Below are positions 20,572-39,252 of a DNA stretch of 50,294 bases, one piece after another. The notes beneath the pieces are model-generated. The model was not told the DNA's origin. It did not search any database and saw only the letters and a list, made by a program, of their open reading frames with translations. This DNA comes from Chloroflexota bacterium (GTDB lineage: Bacteria > Chloroflexota > Anaerolineae > UBA2200): the NCBI GenBank assembly GCA_014360905.1, contig JACIWW010000024.1, forward strand, positions 1-50,294, given 5' to 3'. Every line of letters starts with the position of its first letter. Positions within the stretch are counted from its first letter, which is position 1. Position numbers and translations under genes: made by a program.

Positions 20572-20835
20572 GTACTGGCTGTGATGGAGGCAAGTAGGCA
20601 CTGCTTCGGCCCAGCAGAGAGCCGCCGCTGGTGGAAAGGTGGCGGGCAACAGCGCTGAAATCCACTCCGGAGCCGCGGGCGAAAACAGAGCTTTGAGCGT
20701 GCGGCACAAAGCATCTGGTTAAGCCATGCCGGGTTGCTCCCGTTAACGAGCCCAGAGGCTTTGGAGCATGGCTCCAAAGCGAAGAAAGGTGGCACCACGA
20801 ATGCCCCCTCGTCCTTTCAGGGCAGGGGGCATTTC
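20572..20835 (+). promoter_or_regulatory. T-box riboswitch, serine specific (UCC)
   Basis: The leader has the T-box order of elements. Stem I contains GATGGAGGCAAGTAGG (from about 20583) and AGAGAGC; the specifier loop reads TGAAATCCACTCCGGAG with the serine codon UCC at 20661-20663. A stem III GCTTTGGAGC-ATG-GCTCCAAAGC covers 20758-20780. The T-box core AGGTGGCACC is at 20787-20796, where UGGC matches the G73 discriminator of tRNA-Ser. The terminator ATGCCCCCT/AGGGGGCAT is at 20801-20832. Uncharged tRNA-Ser should favour readthrough into serS. Confidence 0.93.
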
Positions 20836-20859
20836 TATTCTCATACTGGGAGGTGCATG

Positions 20860-22128
20860 ATGATTGACCTGAAACTCATCCGTGAGAGGCCCGACTATGT
20901 GCGCCAGGCGATTGCGACATTGCAACTCAGCGCACCTATTGATGAGATCCTGGATTTGGACGAGCAGCGCCGCAACCTGCTCAGCCAGGTAGAGGCTTTG
21001 CGTGCCCGTCGCAACGAAGTCTCCAAGGAAATTGGTCGCTTGCGTGGTGCTCCCGAAGCCGAAGCGCTTAAGGAAGAAATGCGCCAAGTCGGAGAGCAGA
21101 TCAAGGCTCTGGACGAGCGGGTAAAAACGATCGAGGAACAACTTAGGCAGGCATTGCTCGAGGTGCCCAACCTGCCTCATGAGAGCGTGCCTGTGGGCAA
21201 AGACGAAAGCGAAAACGTCATTGTGCGCACCGAGGGTGAGCCGCGGCATTTTGATTTTCAACCGCTGACCCATTGGGACCTAGGCCCAACCCTGGACATT
21301 ATTGATTTCGAACGCGGAGTCAAGATGTCGGGCTCCCGTTTCTACATCCTCAAAGGATTGGGCGCGCGGTTGCAACGCGCTTTGATCGCCTGGATGCTTG
21401 ACCTGCATGTTCAGCAGCATGGCTATACCGAGATCTATCCCCCATTCATGGTGCGCGAAGAGTGTCTGTGGGTGGATGGCAAGCTGCCCAAGTTCCGCGA
21501 CAATGTGTACCACGATGCAGAGGAGGATTTCTGCTGGATCGGCACCGCCGAGACGCCGCTGACCAATCTGCATCGCGACGAGATTTTGCCAGTTGAGAAG
21601 CTGCCCTTGAATTACGTGGCCTATTCGGCTTGTTTCCGCCGCGAAAAGATGAGCGCTGGGCGGGATGTGCGCGGCATCAAGCGCGGGCATCAGTTCGACA
21701 AAGTGGAGATGTACAAATTCACCACGCCAGAAACCAGTTATGATGAACTGGAGAAAATGGTCGAACACGCCGAGGATGTCGCGCGCCTGCTGGGCATCCC
21801 CCATCGCGTGGTGCTGATGTGCACCGGAGATTTGGGGTTTGTCGCTGCCAAGAAGTACGATGTCGAGATGTGGGCACCAGGTTGTCAGGAATGGCTGGAG
21901 GTATCGAGCATTTCCAACTGCGAGGATTTCCAGGCGCGCCGTGGCAACATCCGCTTCCGCCGCGAGCGTGGTGCCAAGCCAGAGTACGTACACACGCTCA
22001 ATGGCTCCGGGCTGGGCTTGCCGCGCACGCTCATCGCGGTCATGGAGAACTATCAGCAAGCCGATGGCAGCATCGTCGTTCCCGAGGTGCTGCGCCCGTA
22101 CATGGGCGGCGTAGAGGTCATCCGCTGA
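20860..22128 (+). CDS. serS: Seryl-tRNA synthetase
   Basis: 422 residues, full length. The N-terminal coiled-coil arm (about 28-105) binds the long variable arm of tRNA-Ser. The class II catalytic core has motif 2 ([21 protein letters not shown]) split over about 264-285 and motif 3 [16 protein letters not shown] near the C-terminus. ATG 20860 is six bases from GGAGG; ATG 20857 is the alternative. An open frame extending up to 20734 runs through the T-box leader and is not coding. Followed by tRNA-Ser genes. Confidence 0.96.
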
Positions 22129-22231: not shown

Positions 22232-22318
<87 letters not shown>

Positions 22319-22340
22319 AGTTGAAGCGGTTGTGCCTGCT

Positions 22341-22432
22341 GGGGAGATGCCAGAGTGGACGATCGGAGCCGCCTGCTAAGCGGTTGAGGGGGTTAGAAAC
22401 CTCCTCCCTGGGTTCGAATCCCAGTCTCCCCG
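22341..22432 (+). tRNA. tRNA-Ser, anticodon GCT
   Basis: Acceptor GGGGAGA (22341-22347) pairs with TCTCCCC (22425-22431), with G73 at 22432. The anticodon loop CTGCTAA holds GCT at 22375-22377. It has a long variable arm and the T loop TTCGAAT. CCA is not encoded. It decodes AGC/AGU. Confidence 0.95.
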
Positions 22433-22485
22433 CCTGAAAAAGCCGATCAGCAGCGGCTCCGACGCCGCTAGGTCATATATAACAT

Positions 22486-22561
22486 GCCCCCGTAGCTCAG
22501 GGGATAGAGCGCAGCGCTGCGGACGCTGAGGTCACAGGTTCGAGTCCTGCCGGGGGTGCCA
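22486..22561 (+). tRNA. tRNA-Arg, anticodon GCG, CCA encoded
   Basis: Acceptor GCCCCCG (22486-22492) pairs with CGGGGGT (22551-22557) with a terminal G-T pair. The anticodon stem CAGCG/CGCTG holds GCG at 22519-22521. The encoded 3' CCA is at 22559-22561, unlike the two serine tRNAs. It reads CGC (and CGU by wobble). Confidence 0.92.
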
Positions 22562-34718: not shown

Positions 34719-34747
34719 TTGACATTTTCACGAAATCTCGTTACAAT
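34719..34747 (+). promoter_or_regulatory. Consensus promoter for the attenuator-controlled operon
   Basis: Perfect TTGACA (34719-34724) and TACAAT (34742-34747) with a 17-base spacer. Transcription should start near 34754, giving an untranslated leader of about 290 bases before 35045. Confidence 0.87.
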
Positions 34748-34790
34748 AGCAATAAATTCTGCAGCCGAATATATTCTGGGAGGTTCCAGA

Positions 34791-34853
34791 GTGCGAAGCA
34801 GAGATGGCTTCTATCGAAGAAGACCAAACCGCGCAGCAGTCCTATGCAAATAG
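34791..34853 (+). CDS. Arginine-rich leader peptide
   Basis: 20 codons from GTG 34791 to TAG 34851-34853: MRSRDGFYRRRPNRAAVLCK. GGGAGG (34778-34783) lies seven bases upstream, an ideal RBS. Six codons are Arg (positions 2, 4, 9, 10, 11, 14), written CGA, AGA, CGA, AGA, AGA, CGC; CGA and AGA look uncommon in the neighbouring genes, which favour CGC, CGT and CGG. Its last eight codons overlap the terminator that follows. This is the layout of an amino-acid attenuator that would sense charged tRNA-Arg. Its translation is an inference. Confidence 0.6.
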   Translation: MRSRDGFYRRRPNRAAVLCK

Positions 34854-34876
34854 GGCTTGTGTTCGTGCGGTTTTTT
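34827..34876 (+). terminator. Leader (attenuator) terminator
   Basis: AACCGCGC (34827-34834) pairs with GTGCGGTT (34865-34872, one G-U). An inner CCTAT-GCAA-ATAGG hairpin (34841-34854) is inside, and six T residues end the structure (34871-34876). It lies within the leader, about 170 bases before the first large gene, so unchecked transcription would stop here. A ribosome held on the Arg codons at 34815-34823 would cover the 5' arm. Confidence 0.8.
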
Positions 34877-35044
34877 GTTGCTTTGCGCATGAGCAGAAGC
34901 CAATCCGTGGTAGAAGGAGGTAGCAAGGAGAGGAGGTGATGCGTATCGGGTAGCGGAAAGCGTGCTTCTAAAAACTTGTTCTGGCTAACTGCAATGGGCG
35001 GTTTGCCGCTCAATCCATTCACATTACTTGAGGAGGGAAACAAA

Positions 35045-35752
35045 ATGGACTGGAAAGCAATAGCCAATGCTCCTTGGCTTTGGTTCTGTGGGTTCGTTCA
35101 GGCTGCCATTGGTGTTGGCCAGGCCTGGTATTTCTTGAGGCTGGCGACCAGGCTTCTGGAAAAGCACGGGGGCTACAAGTCGAAGGACATCACGGCCATC
35201 GTCCGAGGAGCCCTTATTACGGCCTTCGGTCCCATCATGGCGGAGATCTTTGTCATGATGGCCCTAATCATCGCCATCAGCCCGGCCTATGCCTGGCAGC
35301 GCGAAGGAGTGGGGGTTGGTTCAGTCTTCACTGAGTTGGTTCAGGTGTCCAATGCGGCTGTCGGCGTCGGACAGGAGTTTGGACAGCCCAGTTTCAACAT
35401 CATTGGATTCGCTGCAGCCATGGTCGTGGTCAATATCTCCTGTATTGGTTGGTCCCTAGGGGCAGCACTCTTCACTCCTTACCTAGGCAAGGCTCGTGAC
35501 AGGCTATCAGGAGGCGATCCTCGCCTGCTGGCGGTTATCAGCGTTGCCAGCACGCTCGGAATCTTTGGTTACTACGCCGCCAACGAGATAAAGAAAGGAG
35601 GCGGACGCCCTACAGCAGTGGTTGCTGGCGCGCTGCTCTCCATGTTCCTGTTCAAACTGGCTGATTGGCTCAAAGTGCCACGTCTGAAGGAATGGGCACT
35701 GGGCATTGCCATGTTTGGCGGCATGTATATTGCTCATCTTTTGGGAAGCTAA
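35045..35752 (+). CDS. DUF5058-like multi-pass membrane protein, putative transporter subunit
   Basis: 235 residues with about six membrane segments (near 8-31, 51-80, 117-145, 161-181, 188-208, 217-233). The opening MDWKAIANAPWLWFCGFVQA resembles the DUF5058 family as I remember it; I cannot check this. No ATP-binding or known carrier motif is visible. GAGGAGGG lies seven bases before ATG 35045; an upstream start at 34976 is less likely. It is the first gene after the attenuator, followed 14 bases later by a second membrane protein, suggesting a two-part carrier for the substrate hydrolysed by the downstream M20 enzyme. Confidence 0.65.
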   Translation: MDWKAIANAPWLWFCGFVQAAIGVGQAWYFLRLATRLLEKHGGYKSKDITAIVRGALITAFGPIMAEIFVMMALIIAISPAYAWQREGVGVGSVFTELVQVSNAAVGVGQEFGQPSFNIIGFAAAMVVVNISCIGWSLGAALFTPYLGKARDRLSGGDPRLLAVISVASTLGIFGYYAANEIKKGGGRPTAVVAGALLSMFLFKLADWLKVPRLKEWALGIAMFGGMYIAHLLGS

Positions 35753-35766
35753 GGAGGAATGGTCAA

Positions 35767-36468
35767 ATGGCACCGAATGAAGGATTTGTGGATCTCCCTG
35801 CTGAGCCGTTCGAGAAGGAATATCTCGCACCGGTTCATCGGGTAGGGTTCTGGACCTGCATCGCGATTAGTGCAGCCATGTTCTTGCCGCCTATATTACT
35901 CTATTTGCTCTATGGCGCTTCCGCTCCTTGGTCGGGTGTTATGGCCGGCATGGCCCTTGCGTTGACCTATGCGGTTCCCTTCTTTTTCATCGAGCCCATC
36001 AGCTACTACCCCATCTATGGCGATGCCGGCAACTACATGTCCATGACCACCGGCAACGTCTCCAACCTGCGCCTGCCTTGCGCCGCCGTGGCCCAAGCTG
36101 TAGCGGGTGTACCGGAGGGAACACGCAAGGGCGCCGTAATTGCCTGTATTGGTATCGCCGTCTCTGTGATCGCAGGAGTAATCGGCGTGTTCTTCGGCTC
36201 TCTGGCCGGCGGTTGGATCACCGCTCAGTTCCCGAAGTGGTTGACCGATGCGTTCAAGGTCTACTTGCTGCCTGCTGTTTGGGGTGCGGTGTTTGGCCAG
36301 TTTGCCCTGCGCGGACCGATGTACGCCATTCCCGCGCTGATTATTGCATGGATACCACTTGTGCTCGGCTGGAAAGCCTATTTCATCATCCCCACCGCCG
36401 TGTTTGGCACTCTCCTGGTGGGCTATGCGCTGTACAAGTGGCGCAACATTGCTCCTAGGGCTGGCTAA
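35767..36468 (+). CDS. Membrane protein of unknown family, partner of the DUF5058-like protein
   Basis: 233 residues with about six membrane helices (near 27-50, 56-76, 121-147, 165-181, 185-201, 204-223). A polar segment between helices 2 and 3 (about 76-104: EPISYYPIYGDAGNY and TGNVSNLRLP) has the look of a conserved functional loop. ATG 35767 follows AAGGAGGA at eight bases and sits 14 bases after the preceding stop. Similar size, topology and tight spacing suggest the two proteins form a complex. Not a family I can name. Confidence 0.65.
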   Translation: MAPNEGFVDLPAEPFEKEYLAPVHRVGFWTCIAISAAMFLPPILLYLLYGASAPWSGVMAGMALALTYAVPFFFIEPISYYPIYGDAGNYMSMTTGNVSNLRLPCAAVAQAVAGVPEGTRKGAVIACIGIAVSVIAGVIGVFFGSLAGGWITAQFPKWLTDAFKVYLLPAVWGAVFGQFALRGPMYAIPALIIAWIPLVLGWKAYFIIPTAVFGTLLVGYALYKWRNIAPRAG

Positions 36469-36546: not shown

Positions 36547-37722
36547 ATGAAGCAAGACACAGAGCTCCTGACCAAAATCAAGGAGGACGAATTGGTGCGC
36601 CTTTGCCAGGACATGGTGCGCATCAAGACAATCAACCCGCCGGGCAACGAGCGCGAGAACGCTGATTACGTGGCCGATTTCCTGCGCAAGGCTGGCCTTG
36701 AGGTTGAGATATTATCGCACACCGAGACCAGGGCTAGCGTCGTGGCGCGCTTGAAAGGCAGTGGAGAGAAGCCAGGCCTTCTTTATTCTGGCCACCTCGA
36801 CGTGGTGCCTGTGGGGGCGCAGGAGTGGCTGCATGACCCCTTTGGCGGCGAAGTCATCGAAGGCAAGTTGTGGGGCCGTGGTGCTTCGGATATGAAGGGC
36901 GGCGATGCTGCGATCCTGATTGCAGCCAAAGTGCTGGCAGAGTCTGGCATACCGCTGAAGGGCGACCTCATCCTCAACTTCAATGCTGGTGAGGAGGGCG
37001 AGCAACTAGGAGCGAACGCAGCCGCCGCGCACTTGTCCGGTGAGCGGGTACAGGCTGTGGTCATCACCGAACCCAGTTCCAATGATGTCTACATTGCGGA
37101 GAAGGGTGCCTTCTGGCTAGAGTTGACCACGTATGGCAAGACGGCGCATGGCTCCGCGCCTCACCTAGGACAAAACGCGATCATGATGATGGTGGCGCTT
37201 TTAAGCGAACTGGATCGCCAGGTTGTGCCGTACCAAGAGCATCCATTGTTAGGCGGCTTTACCCGCAGCGTTAACACTATCACTGGTGGCGTCAAGACCA
37301 ATGTGGTACCTGATCAGTGTACGGTAACCGTGGACCAGCGCACTGTGCCTGGACAGGATCACCAGGCTATCCTGCGCCAGGTGAAAGAACTCATTGCAGA
37401 CCTGAGCCGCCGCATTCCCAACTTTAAGGCTTCGGTCAAGGTGATCAACGACCGCATCCCAGTAGCCAGTGCGCCGGATGAAGCGACTGTGCAGCACTTT
37501 TTCGATGTCGTGGCCGAGGTAGTTGGCAAGCGCCCTGAACCCAAGGGCGTGGCCTACTATACTGATGCGGTGTCTTTGATACCAGCACTCAAAGCACCGC
37601 TGATCATCTGTGGGCCGGGCGAGGCCAGCTTGGCCCATCAGCCGAATGAATATGTCGAGGTAGCCAAACTGGTTGAATCAGCCAAGATCCTCACCTTGGC
37701 TGCTGTTCGTTTGCTTACCTGA
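36547..37722 (+). CDS. M20 family metallopeptidase/deacylase (ArgE/DapE type)
   Basis: 391 residues. Two-zinc M20 hydrolase: His83 and Asp85 in SGHLDVVP, bridging Asp115 in RGASDMKGG, catalytic Glu149/Glu150 in NAGEEGE, Glu175 in TEPSS, and His364 in LAHQPNEY. The dimerisation domain (about 183-300) is complete. Members release amino acids from N-acyl compounds (ArgE, DapE) or cut dipeptides. The substrate cannot be read from sequence. It lies 78 bases after the membrane pair, so probably acts on the imported compound in the cytoplasm. Confidence 0.88.
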   Translation: MKQDTELLTKIKEDELVRLCQDMVRIKTINPPGNERENADYVADFLRKAGLEVEILSHTETRASVVARLKGSGEKPGLLYSGHLDVVPVGAQEWLHDPFGGEVIEGKLWGRGASDMKGGDAAILIAAKVLAESGIPLKGDLILNFNAGEEGEQLGANAAAAHLSGERVQAVVITEPSSNDVYIAEKGAFWLELTTYGKTAHGSAPHLGQNAIMMMVALLSELDRQVVPYQEHPLLGGFTRSVNTITGGVKTNVVPDQCTVTVDQRTVPGQDHQAILRQVKELIADLSRRIPNFKASVKVINDRIPVASAPDEATVQHFFDVVAEVVGKRPEPKGVAYYTDAVSLIPALKAPLIICGPGEASLAHQPNEYVEVAKLVESAKILTLAAVRLLT

Positions 37723-37796: not shown

Positions 37797-37851
37797 ATTG
37801 AGGGAGCCTGTGATCCCCCTCTGAGCAATATACCCGATGAAAGGAATAGCG

Positions 37852-39252
37852 ATGACTGCAAAAGAAAACGCGTTGCAGTGCCTGGAAACGAACCAAAACA
37901 AATGGATAGAATTGGCCAAGGATATCTGGGAGCATCCGGAACTAGGCCTGCAAGAAACTCGTTCCTCCAAACTGCTGGCAGACGAACTGGAGCAAGCTGG
38001 TTTCTCCGTCCAGCGCGGCGTGGACCAATTAGCGACTGCTTTTGTGGCTTCGTGGGGGGACGGAAAACCCATCATCGGCATCTTGGGCGAGTATGATGCC
38101 TTGCCTGGGCTTTCGCAAAAAGTCTCTGCGGCCCGCGAGCCGGTGCAGGAGGGAGCTCCAGGGCATGGCTGTGGCCACAACCTCTTCGGCGTTGCTTGCC
38201 TAGCTGCCGCGCTGGCGGTCAAGGAAGCCATGGAAAAGGCAGGCATCAAAGGGACTATCCGCTACTATGGCTGTCCCGCTGAGGAAACCATGGTTGGAAA
38301 ACCCTTTATGGCCAGAGCCGGGGTTTTCGACGATTTGGATGCGGCTATTACCTGGCATCCTTTCTATGTCAACAGCGTATGGTGGAGCTCGTTTCTGGCC
38401 ATGAATTCCTTCAAAGTGAACTTCCATGGCGTCGCGGCCCACGCTGCGGCTGCGCCACACGAAGGACGCAGTGCGTTGGATGCCGTGCTGCTCATGGACA
38501 TTGGTGTCAACTTTATGCGCGAGCACATGCCTGAAAAGGCTCGTGTCCACTGTGTGATCACGAAAGGCGGCGAGGCTCCCAATGTCGTCCCTGCTTATGC
38601 CCAGGTGTGGTATTATGTGCGTGCTCCGTTGCGAGAACAGGTAGAAGCGATTTACGCACGGATAATGGACATCGCCAAGGGGGCCGCGCTCATGACGGGC
38701 ACCACCTATGATGTGGACTTTCTCACTGGCGGCTACGACATGCTGCCCAATGACACCCTCTGCGAACTTTTGCTGGAGAAGTTGAAGGAAGCCGGCCCAC
38801 CCCAGTTCACCGCTGAGGAAAAAGAGTTTGCACGGAAGTTGCAGGCTACCTTGCCGCCCAACGCAATTGAGGATGCCTTGCGTTCTTACGGGCTGACCCG
38901 GGAACAGGTTGGTGACCCGCTGTGCGAAACCATCGTGGAGCCATTTGACAAGGGCAGGGTGTTGCCTGCCTCCACGGATGTGGGCGATGTGAGCCACATC
39001 GCGCCAACAGCGCAGATCACCACCTGTTGTCATGCCCTTGGCACTCCCCTGCATAGTTGGCAGAATACCGCTTTTGCTGGTTCGAGCATTGGCTTCAAAG
39101 GGATGATGGTTGCTGCCAGGACGCTGGCGCTGGCAGCGTTGGACCTGTTGACCAGACCTGACCTCGTCCAGGCGATTCGCGCGGAATTCGAGCAGAAGCG
39201 GGCAGGCAAGAAGTACGTCTCGCCGTTGCCCGAGGGCGCGACGCCGCATTAG
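37852..39252 (+). CDS. M20D amidohydrolase, AbgB-like
   Basis: 466 residues. Starts with LAKDIWEHPELGLQETRSSKLLADEL and contains GEYDALPGLSQ, GHGCGHN (104-110) and CPAEET (141-146), typical of AbgB/p-aminobenzoyl-glutamate hydrolase and related aminoacylases. ATG 37852 has AAGGA (37841-37845) at six bases; ATG 37837 is the alternative. It would hydrolyse an N-acyl amino acid or dipeptide, complementing the other M20 enzyme. Promoter not found. Confidence 0.88.
   Translation: MTAKENALQCLETNQNKWIELAKDIWEHPELGLQETRSSKLLADELEQAGFSVQRGVDQLATAFVASWGDGKPIIGILGEYDALPGLSQKVSAAREPVQEGAPGHGCGHNLFGVACLAAALAVKEAMEKAGIKGTIRYYGCPAEETMVGKPFMARAGVFDDLDAAITWHPFYVNSVWWSSFLAMNSFKVNFHGVAAHAAAAPHEGRSALDAVLLMDIGVNFMREHMPEKARVHCVITKGGEAPNVVPAYAQVWYYVRAPLREQVEAIYARIMDIAKGAALMTGTTYDVDFLTGGYDMLPNDTLCELLLEKLKEAGPPQFTAEEKEFARKLQATLPPNAIEDALRSYGLTREQVGDPLCETIVEPFDKGRVLPASTDVGDVSHIAPTAQITTCCHALGTPLHSWQNTAFAGSSIGFKGMMVAARTLALAALDLLTRPDLVQAIRAEFEQKRAGKKYVSPLPEGATPH

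Follow-up and report, generated by a model that had tools for sequence, protein, structure and literature searches.

The regulatory region of the DUF5058-M20 operon

Does the leader ahead of the DUF5058-M20 operon in this window (the whole 50,294-nt stretch analysed) sense arginine, or does it join a premature terminator to translation of whatever kind? A preliminary description had listed a promoter, a ribosome-binding site, an Arg-rich ORF of 20 codons and a terminator, and all of them are present where it placed them, on the plus strand. The sigma-70-type promoter (34719-34747) consists of TTGACA (34719-34724), a 17-nt spacer and TACAAT, matching 11 of the 12 consensus positions. A small hairpin (UCUGG/CCAGA) carries the Shine-Dalgarno sequence GGGAGG (34778-34783) in its loop region, 7 nt before the GTG at 34791 that opens the leader ORF (34791-34853; VRSRDGFYRRRPNRAAVLCK, then a stop codon). 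Arg is found at codons 2, 4, 9, 10, 11 and 14, written as CGA or AGA in five of the six cases. Folding places an intrinsic terminator at 34827-34876 (stem 34827-34872, T6 34871-34876), and the stop codon of the ORF lies in its loop region. For the segment 34790-34885, the folding energy is -37.1 kcal/mol (z -3.5). Promoter, Shine-Dalgarno sequence, GTG ORF and terminator are thus confirmed as an observation, and no Rfam covariance model matched the window leader even at E 10.

The first gene of the operon encodes a DUF5058 membrane protein (35045-35752; PF16481, 1.2e-38). It is followed on the same strand by a second membrane protein without a Pfam or NCBIfam family (35767-36468), an M20 peptidase of the ArgE/DapE family (36547-37722; TIGR01910, 280 bits vs a cut-off of 218) and an M20 amidohydrolase (37837-39252; TIGR01891). 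Among solved structures, the best relative of the peptidase is a DapE, and those closest to the amidohydrolase are HmrA (1.5e-53) and Xaa-Arg dipeptidase (1.5e-44). An oligopeptide/dipeptide-type ABC transporter is the divergent neighbour. Judging from these families, peptide scavenging is a fair guess for the role of the operon; substrate specificity is not readable from them. We found no papers naming DUF5058 in the open-access literature.

Arginine codons of the leader ORF

CGA and AGA are uncommon in genes, as the preliminary description had it for the neighbouring ones. In 450 kb of the window genome (GC 53%), the sample used for all background statistics, they make up 17% of the Arg codons in long genes (CGA 10%, AGA 7%), and finding them at five of six Arg codons has a P of 0.0008 given this usage. 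Random Arg codons at intergenic composition would be CGA or AGA in about 34% of cases, so the rarity may mean merely that the ORF is no ordinary gene. For a comparable ORF in random intergenic DNA, the P of six or more Arg is 0.007; when the ORF body was shuffled, at least six Arg appeared in 1.3-2.3% of the open cases and RRR in 2-3%. The same 450 kb holds 47 small leader ORFs with a strong Shine-Dalgarno sequence, two of which contain RRR or at least six Arg. By these values, Arg richness is near chance at genome scale. Within the Arg-rich class of these 47 ORFs, the window ORF alone overlaps a premature terminator. The Arg richness is mildly unusual, and its combination with a terminator more so.

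Leaders of related genomes

A search for DUF5058 gave three close copies in 396 genomes of the class and five in genome contigs. Beyond the window genome (G000), the close copies are in G001, of the same genus (95% protein identity), and in G005, of the same family (74%); G000-G005 are the six genomes of the family. Three of the five contig copies are remoter (L012-L014, 58-61%) and showed no terminator-bearing leader on inspection, and no DUF5058 was found in viral contigs. The comparison therefore rests on three leaders in all collections searched.

The promoter of G001 (TTGACA-17-TATACT) aligns with that of the window, and the promoter of G005 is weaker (TGGACA-17-TAGCAT). Both leaders have a Shine-Dalgarno sequence (GGGAGG in G001, GGAGG in G005) that is followed by a GTG after 5-9 nt, and both have terminators of about -35 kcal/mol in the same position before DUF5058. 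Since promoter, Shine-Dalgarno/GTG and terminator all recur, premature termination is probably genuine. The GTG ORFs (MLQARRPSSKETKSCERPVRTRPGFARFG... in G001 and MTGTTARRGGPFLDAPCLAVF... in G005, with the GTG start read as M) cross the terminator, and that of G005 extends into the DUF5058 start. The three leader ORFs share no common peptide and differ in length.

Conservation of the Arg codons in related genomes had been named as the support to look for. It was not found: the supposedly regulatory codons are not conserved in frame, and all that is shared is an RR at other places (codons 5-6 in G001, 7-8 in G005), with a chance probability of 0.12 and 0.13 respectively and a joint P of about 0.015. 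In G001, the triplets that spell RRRPNR do not share the frame of the GTG next to the Shine-Dalgarno sequence (25 nt vs 24 in the window), and the only in-frame starts, an ATG and a GTG, are both without one. The nucleotides themselves are kept there, where GAAGGAGACCAAA and TTTGGTCTTTTTT build the outer part of the terminator stem. In G001, the purine run GAAGRAGACCAAA serves as the terminator 5' arm and pairs with TTTGGTCTTTTTT; the window has lost 7 nt of that 3' arm. The stem role in G001, together with the loss in the window, gives the AGA-AGA run a non-coding reason.

Two further readings were tried and rejected. RRRPNR as a conserved coding sequence has three synonymous differences to its credit, yet these differences also preserve G-U pairs of the terminator stem, and in G001 that frame is not opened by any start that has a Shine-Dalgarno sequence. 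A riboswitch was set aside because the 5' part of the leader is unconserved between two species of one genus.

Effect of a leader ribosome on the terminator

In folding the leaders, we masked the stretch that a ribosome would cover, from 15 nt before the A site to 12 nt after it. Without a ribosome, terminator pairing is 0.98 in the window, 1.0 in G001 and 0.98 in G005. For a ribosome stalled at successive Arg codons of the window ORF it is predicted to be 0.99 (codon 2), 0.98 (codon 4), 0.89 (codon 9) and 0.46 (codon 10); it falls to 0 at Arg 11 and stays there up to codon 19. Codons 2 and 4 are the same CGA and AGA and are read first, with the terminator intact. In G001, a ribosome on codons 10-19 abolishes the terminator, and pairing is 1.0 at both Arg of the RR; in G005, pairing is near 0 for codons 4-11, whatever the residue. 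At the window stop codon no stem disruption is predicted, although it would be expected sterically.

In this modelling, a ribosome would come to lie over the terminator arm in all three homologues. Whatever codon it reads, a ribosome on the arm blocks the terminator; an Arg-specific logic is not common to the three leaders. An Arg stall, proposed earlier as the switch, fares badly here, as it leaves the terminator intact at codons 2 and 4, has no effect in G001 and is non-specific in G005. The caveat attached to that proposal, that a four-segment switch is not obvious, was well placed: co-transcriptional folding of the window leader with a stall at Arg 10-11 gives no antiterminator, and the 5' arm is left unpaired rather than held in a competing helix.

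Putative arginine attenuators ahead of arginine genes in Anaerolineae

The argG leaders of G000, G001, G004 and G005 encode peptides (MSSCWLTVDVVDIRRAREEPDHPSG, MSDCWSVISAGYIRRAREEPDHPSG, MNAYLTSQNSRRARLEPDSHSG and MIAASVVDKQDVRRARVEPDSPPG, respectively), followed by two alternative helices and a terminator. That of the window genome lies at L047 2091-2310 (G000:C1:61215-61330, minus strand), and the peptides of the family have the form RRAR-EPD..SG and a stop codon, or variants of it. A covariance model seeded with these four leaders, R1, matches 85 of the 396 class genomes at E up to 1e-3, with false matches in its weak tail; further leaders of the family are L048-L069, L073-L076 and L078-L080. 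Among 20 non-seed downstream genes examined, seven are argG, six ArgC-type, three LysX/RimK-type and one an amino-acid-type binding protein; three metallophosphatases, with no convincing Arg peptide, were counted as false. Across 26 R1 leaders, 17 of 26 pairs have two-sided changes and none of 500 shuffles reaches any measure, in an alignment that was fitted to the model and is thereby inclined to this outcome. The Arg pair is CGACGA in the argG type and AGGAGG in the ArgC type, and its retention across CGN and AGG codons argues for coding.

Co-transcriptional folding predicts that a stall at the third Arg of RRAR brings the terminator 5' arm into the upstream helix (0.98 in both L047 and L048, vs 0.72 and 0.26 without a ribosome). 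The switch is clear in these two leaders and weak in L049 and L050; thermodynamic folding of complete leaders fails to show it across the four, since the completed terminator prevails every time. Rfam has no match to these leaders, and we found no publication describing the family in the open-access literature. By its anatomy, with four segments and conserved Arg codons, the argG-type leader would be a textbook-type arginine attenuator, apparently undescribed. The window leader is not a member of this family (2.4 bits, E 0.4 with filters off), and R1 matches neither the G001 nor the G005 DUF5058 locus.

ArgR was found in none of the 396 genomes of the class (8/14 control genomes). ArgJ and the ArgC-type dimerisation domain are absent from all six family genomes (controls 10/14 and 14/14), which suggests that the usual ornithine route is probably missing and that arginine peptides would be profitable. 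Four of the six genomes have argG, followed by argH in G000. From this gene content, ornithine auxotrophy with retained conversion of citrulline to arginine is probable in the family.

Elsewhere in the window, a T-box leader (20572-20819) stands before an ORF (20734-22128) that looks, from its translation, like a seryl-tRNA synthetase. Next, at 22232-22561, come two tRNA-Ser genes and a single tRNA-Arg gene (anticodon gcg).

The 5' UTR beyond the terminator

Past the terminator, the 5' UTR appears structured (34893-35011), with a long-range stem (34893-34902 / 34982-34992) and a hairpin (34996-35011). Between the window and G001, the stem reads GCAGaAGCCA/UGGCUarCUGC, and each of the two helices has one compensatory pair, that of the hairpin being a G-C to A-U change. 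The element is absent from the G005 leader, and since only two sequences can be compared, support for the structure is weak.

Within this UTR, the AGGAGGTGATGC element (34932-34953), fully complementary to the anti-Shine-Dalgarno, precedes a 4-5 codon mini-ORF (MRIG and stop). The element AGGAGGTGAWGC, complementary to the whole 16S anti-Shine-Dalgarno sequence, recurs 44-105 nt 5' of predicted gene starts: at window 34932-34953, G000:C4:111250 (minus strand), G001:C12:184841, G000:C1 near 126172 (minus strand), G001:C20:151071 and G002:C16:14825. Conserved mini-ORFs of 4-8 codons follow it (MMRIG, MKRIES/MKGIEQ and MMPISTKQ/MMPISVKQ, each with a stop codon).

Explanations for the leader

Tentatively, and with a little less than even confidence, we read the leader as a premature intrinsic terminator coupled to leader translation in a way not specific to arginine, the Arg content being incidental. 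Near 34876, the terminator would normally end most transcripts. Ribosomes starting at the conserved Shine-Dalgarno/GTG would enter the terminator 5' arm, and polymerase would read through only if the timing put such a ribosome on the arm. The AGA-AGA run would largely be the purine arm of a longer ancestral terminator. Coupling is favoured by the retention of promoter, Shine-Dalgarno sequence with GTG, and terminator despite the diverged sequence between them. Work in E. coli showed that terminators close to a stop codon are repressed by ribosomes in the act of translation, and that those lying in the first 100 bp of a coding region are efficient (PMC4824070). With the U-tract 80 nt from the start, the latter result means that coupling would require a putative pause of the polymerase; without one, all ribosome-based models, ours included, face a genuine difficulty. 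Alternatively, the ORF may be irrelevant and the leader may act as a fixed dampener or through antitermination by a protein or RNA factor, possibly via the 34893-35011 UTR. The terminator is better conserved than the peptide, and the post-terminator blocks are strongly conserved between the window and G001, with their compensatory pairs. However, a Shine-Dalgarno sequence plus GTG is present in 3/3 leaders, G005 has no post-terminator element and Rfam gave no match, and we regard this explanation as rather improbable. Promoter and terminator might instead delimit a separate small RNA of about 120 nt, with the operon promoter further down. The unit is compact and a weak promoter-like match exists at 35018-35046, but that match overlaps the DUF5058 start codon and is absent in G001, and little of the leader's own sequence is conserved, making this very unlikely.

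What the preliminary description proposed is an arginine attenuator: with low charged tRNA-Arg, the ribosome would stall on CGA-AGA-AGA (34815-34823), mask the arm and switch the peptide-scavenging operon on. Its part concerning a premature terminator entered by a translatable ORF stands, and is kept in two relatives; arginine as the signal is unproven, and is weakened by the sister species G001. There RRRPNR is out of the GTG frame and Arg stalls leave the terminator intact, as they do at window codons 2, 4 and mostly 9, while nearly any codon blocks it in G005; the window leader also lacks an antiterminator and does not match R1. On the other side are the six Arg codons, mostly rare CGA and AGA, the likeness of the last operon gene to Xaa-Arg dipeptidase and the anatomically true Arg attenuator at argG in the same genome. 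The absence of ArgJ, ArgC-type domains and ArgR also makes arginine salvage and attenuation both plausible. We consider arginine attenuation unlikely, and keep it at that level because of the RR in three ORFs, the missing ornithine route and the lack of ArgR. Just as doubtful is a reading in which the operon belongs, as an outlier, to an arginine attenuation regulon standing in for ArgR in Anaerolineae; its minimal attenuator would have no antiterminator, the arm being occupied by a ribosome stalled at RR/RRR.

The E. coli pyrBI and ampC leaders are comparable systems: an ORF or a ribosome-binding site extends as far as the intrinsic terminator there, so that the position of the ribosome decides termination. 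The window leader would be alike in that a ribosome on its ORF is modelled to reach the terminator arm; unlike them, its ORF varies in length among the three relatives. Classical trp and his attenuators have a short ORF rich in one amino acid before an intrinsic terminator. The window leader shares the translation signals, an Arg-rich short ORF and the terminator, but has no segment 1:2 or antiterminator, its terminator overlaps the ORF and its peptide is unconserved. With the R1 leaders it has in common an Arg run in a short ORF, a strong terminator and the genome, whereas their conserved RR, the argG-type stop codon in segment 2 and the covarying helices set them apart. The Salmonella speF leader orf34 also contains two consecutive rare Arg codons, and its translation prevents premature termination; however, that system is Rho-dependent, without an intrinsic terminator, and has a conserved peptide domain (PMC6386406).

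DUF5058 is a little-known transporter family, and its leader adds one further case of a premature terminator. If the operon did belong to an arginine regulon, an arginine-starved ribosome would switch on the scavenging of arginine-containing peptides. Apart from this locus, the R1 family suggests a testable answer to how arginine synthesis may be controlled in a bacterial class that lacks a detectable ArgR.
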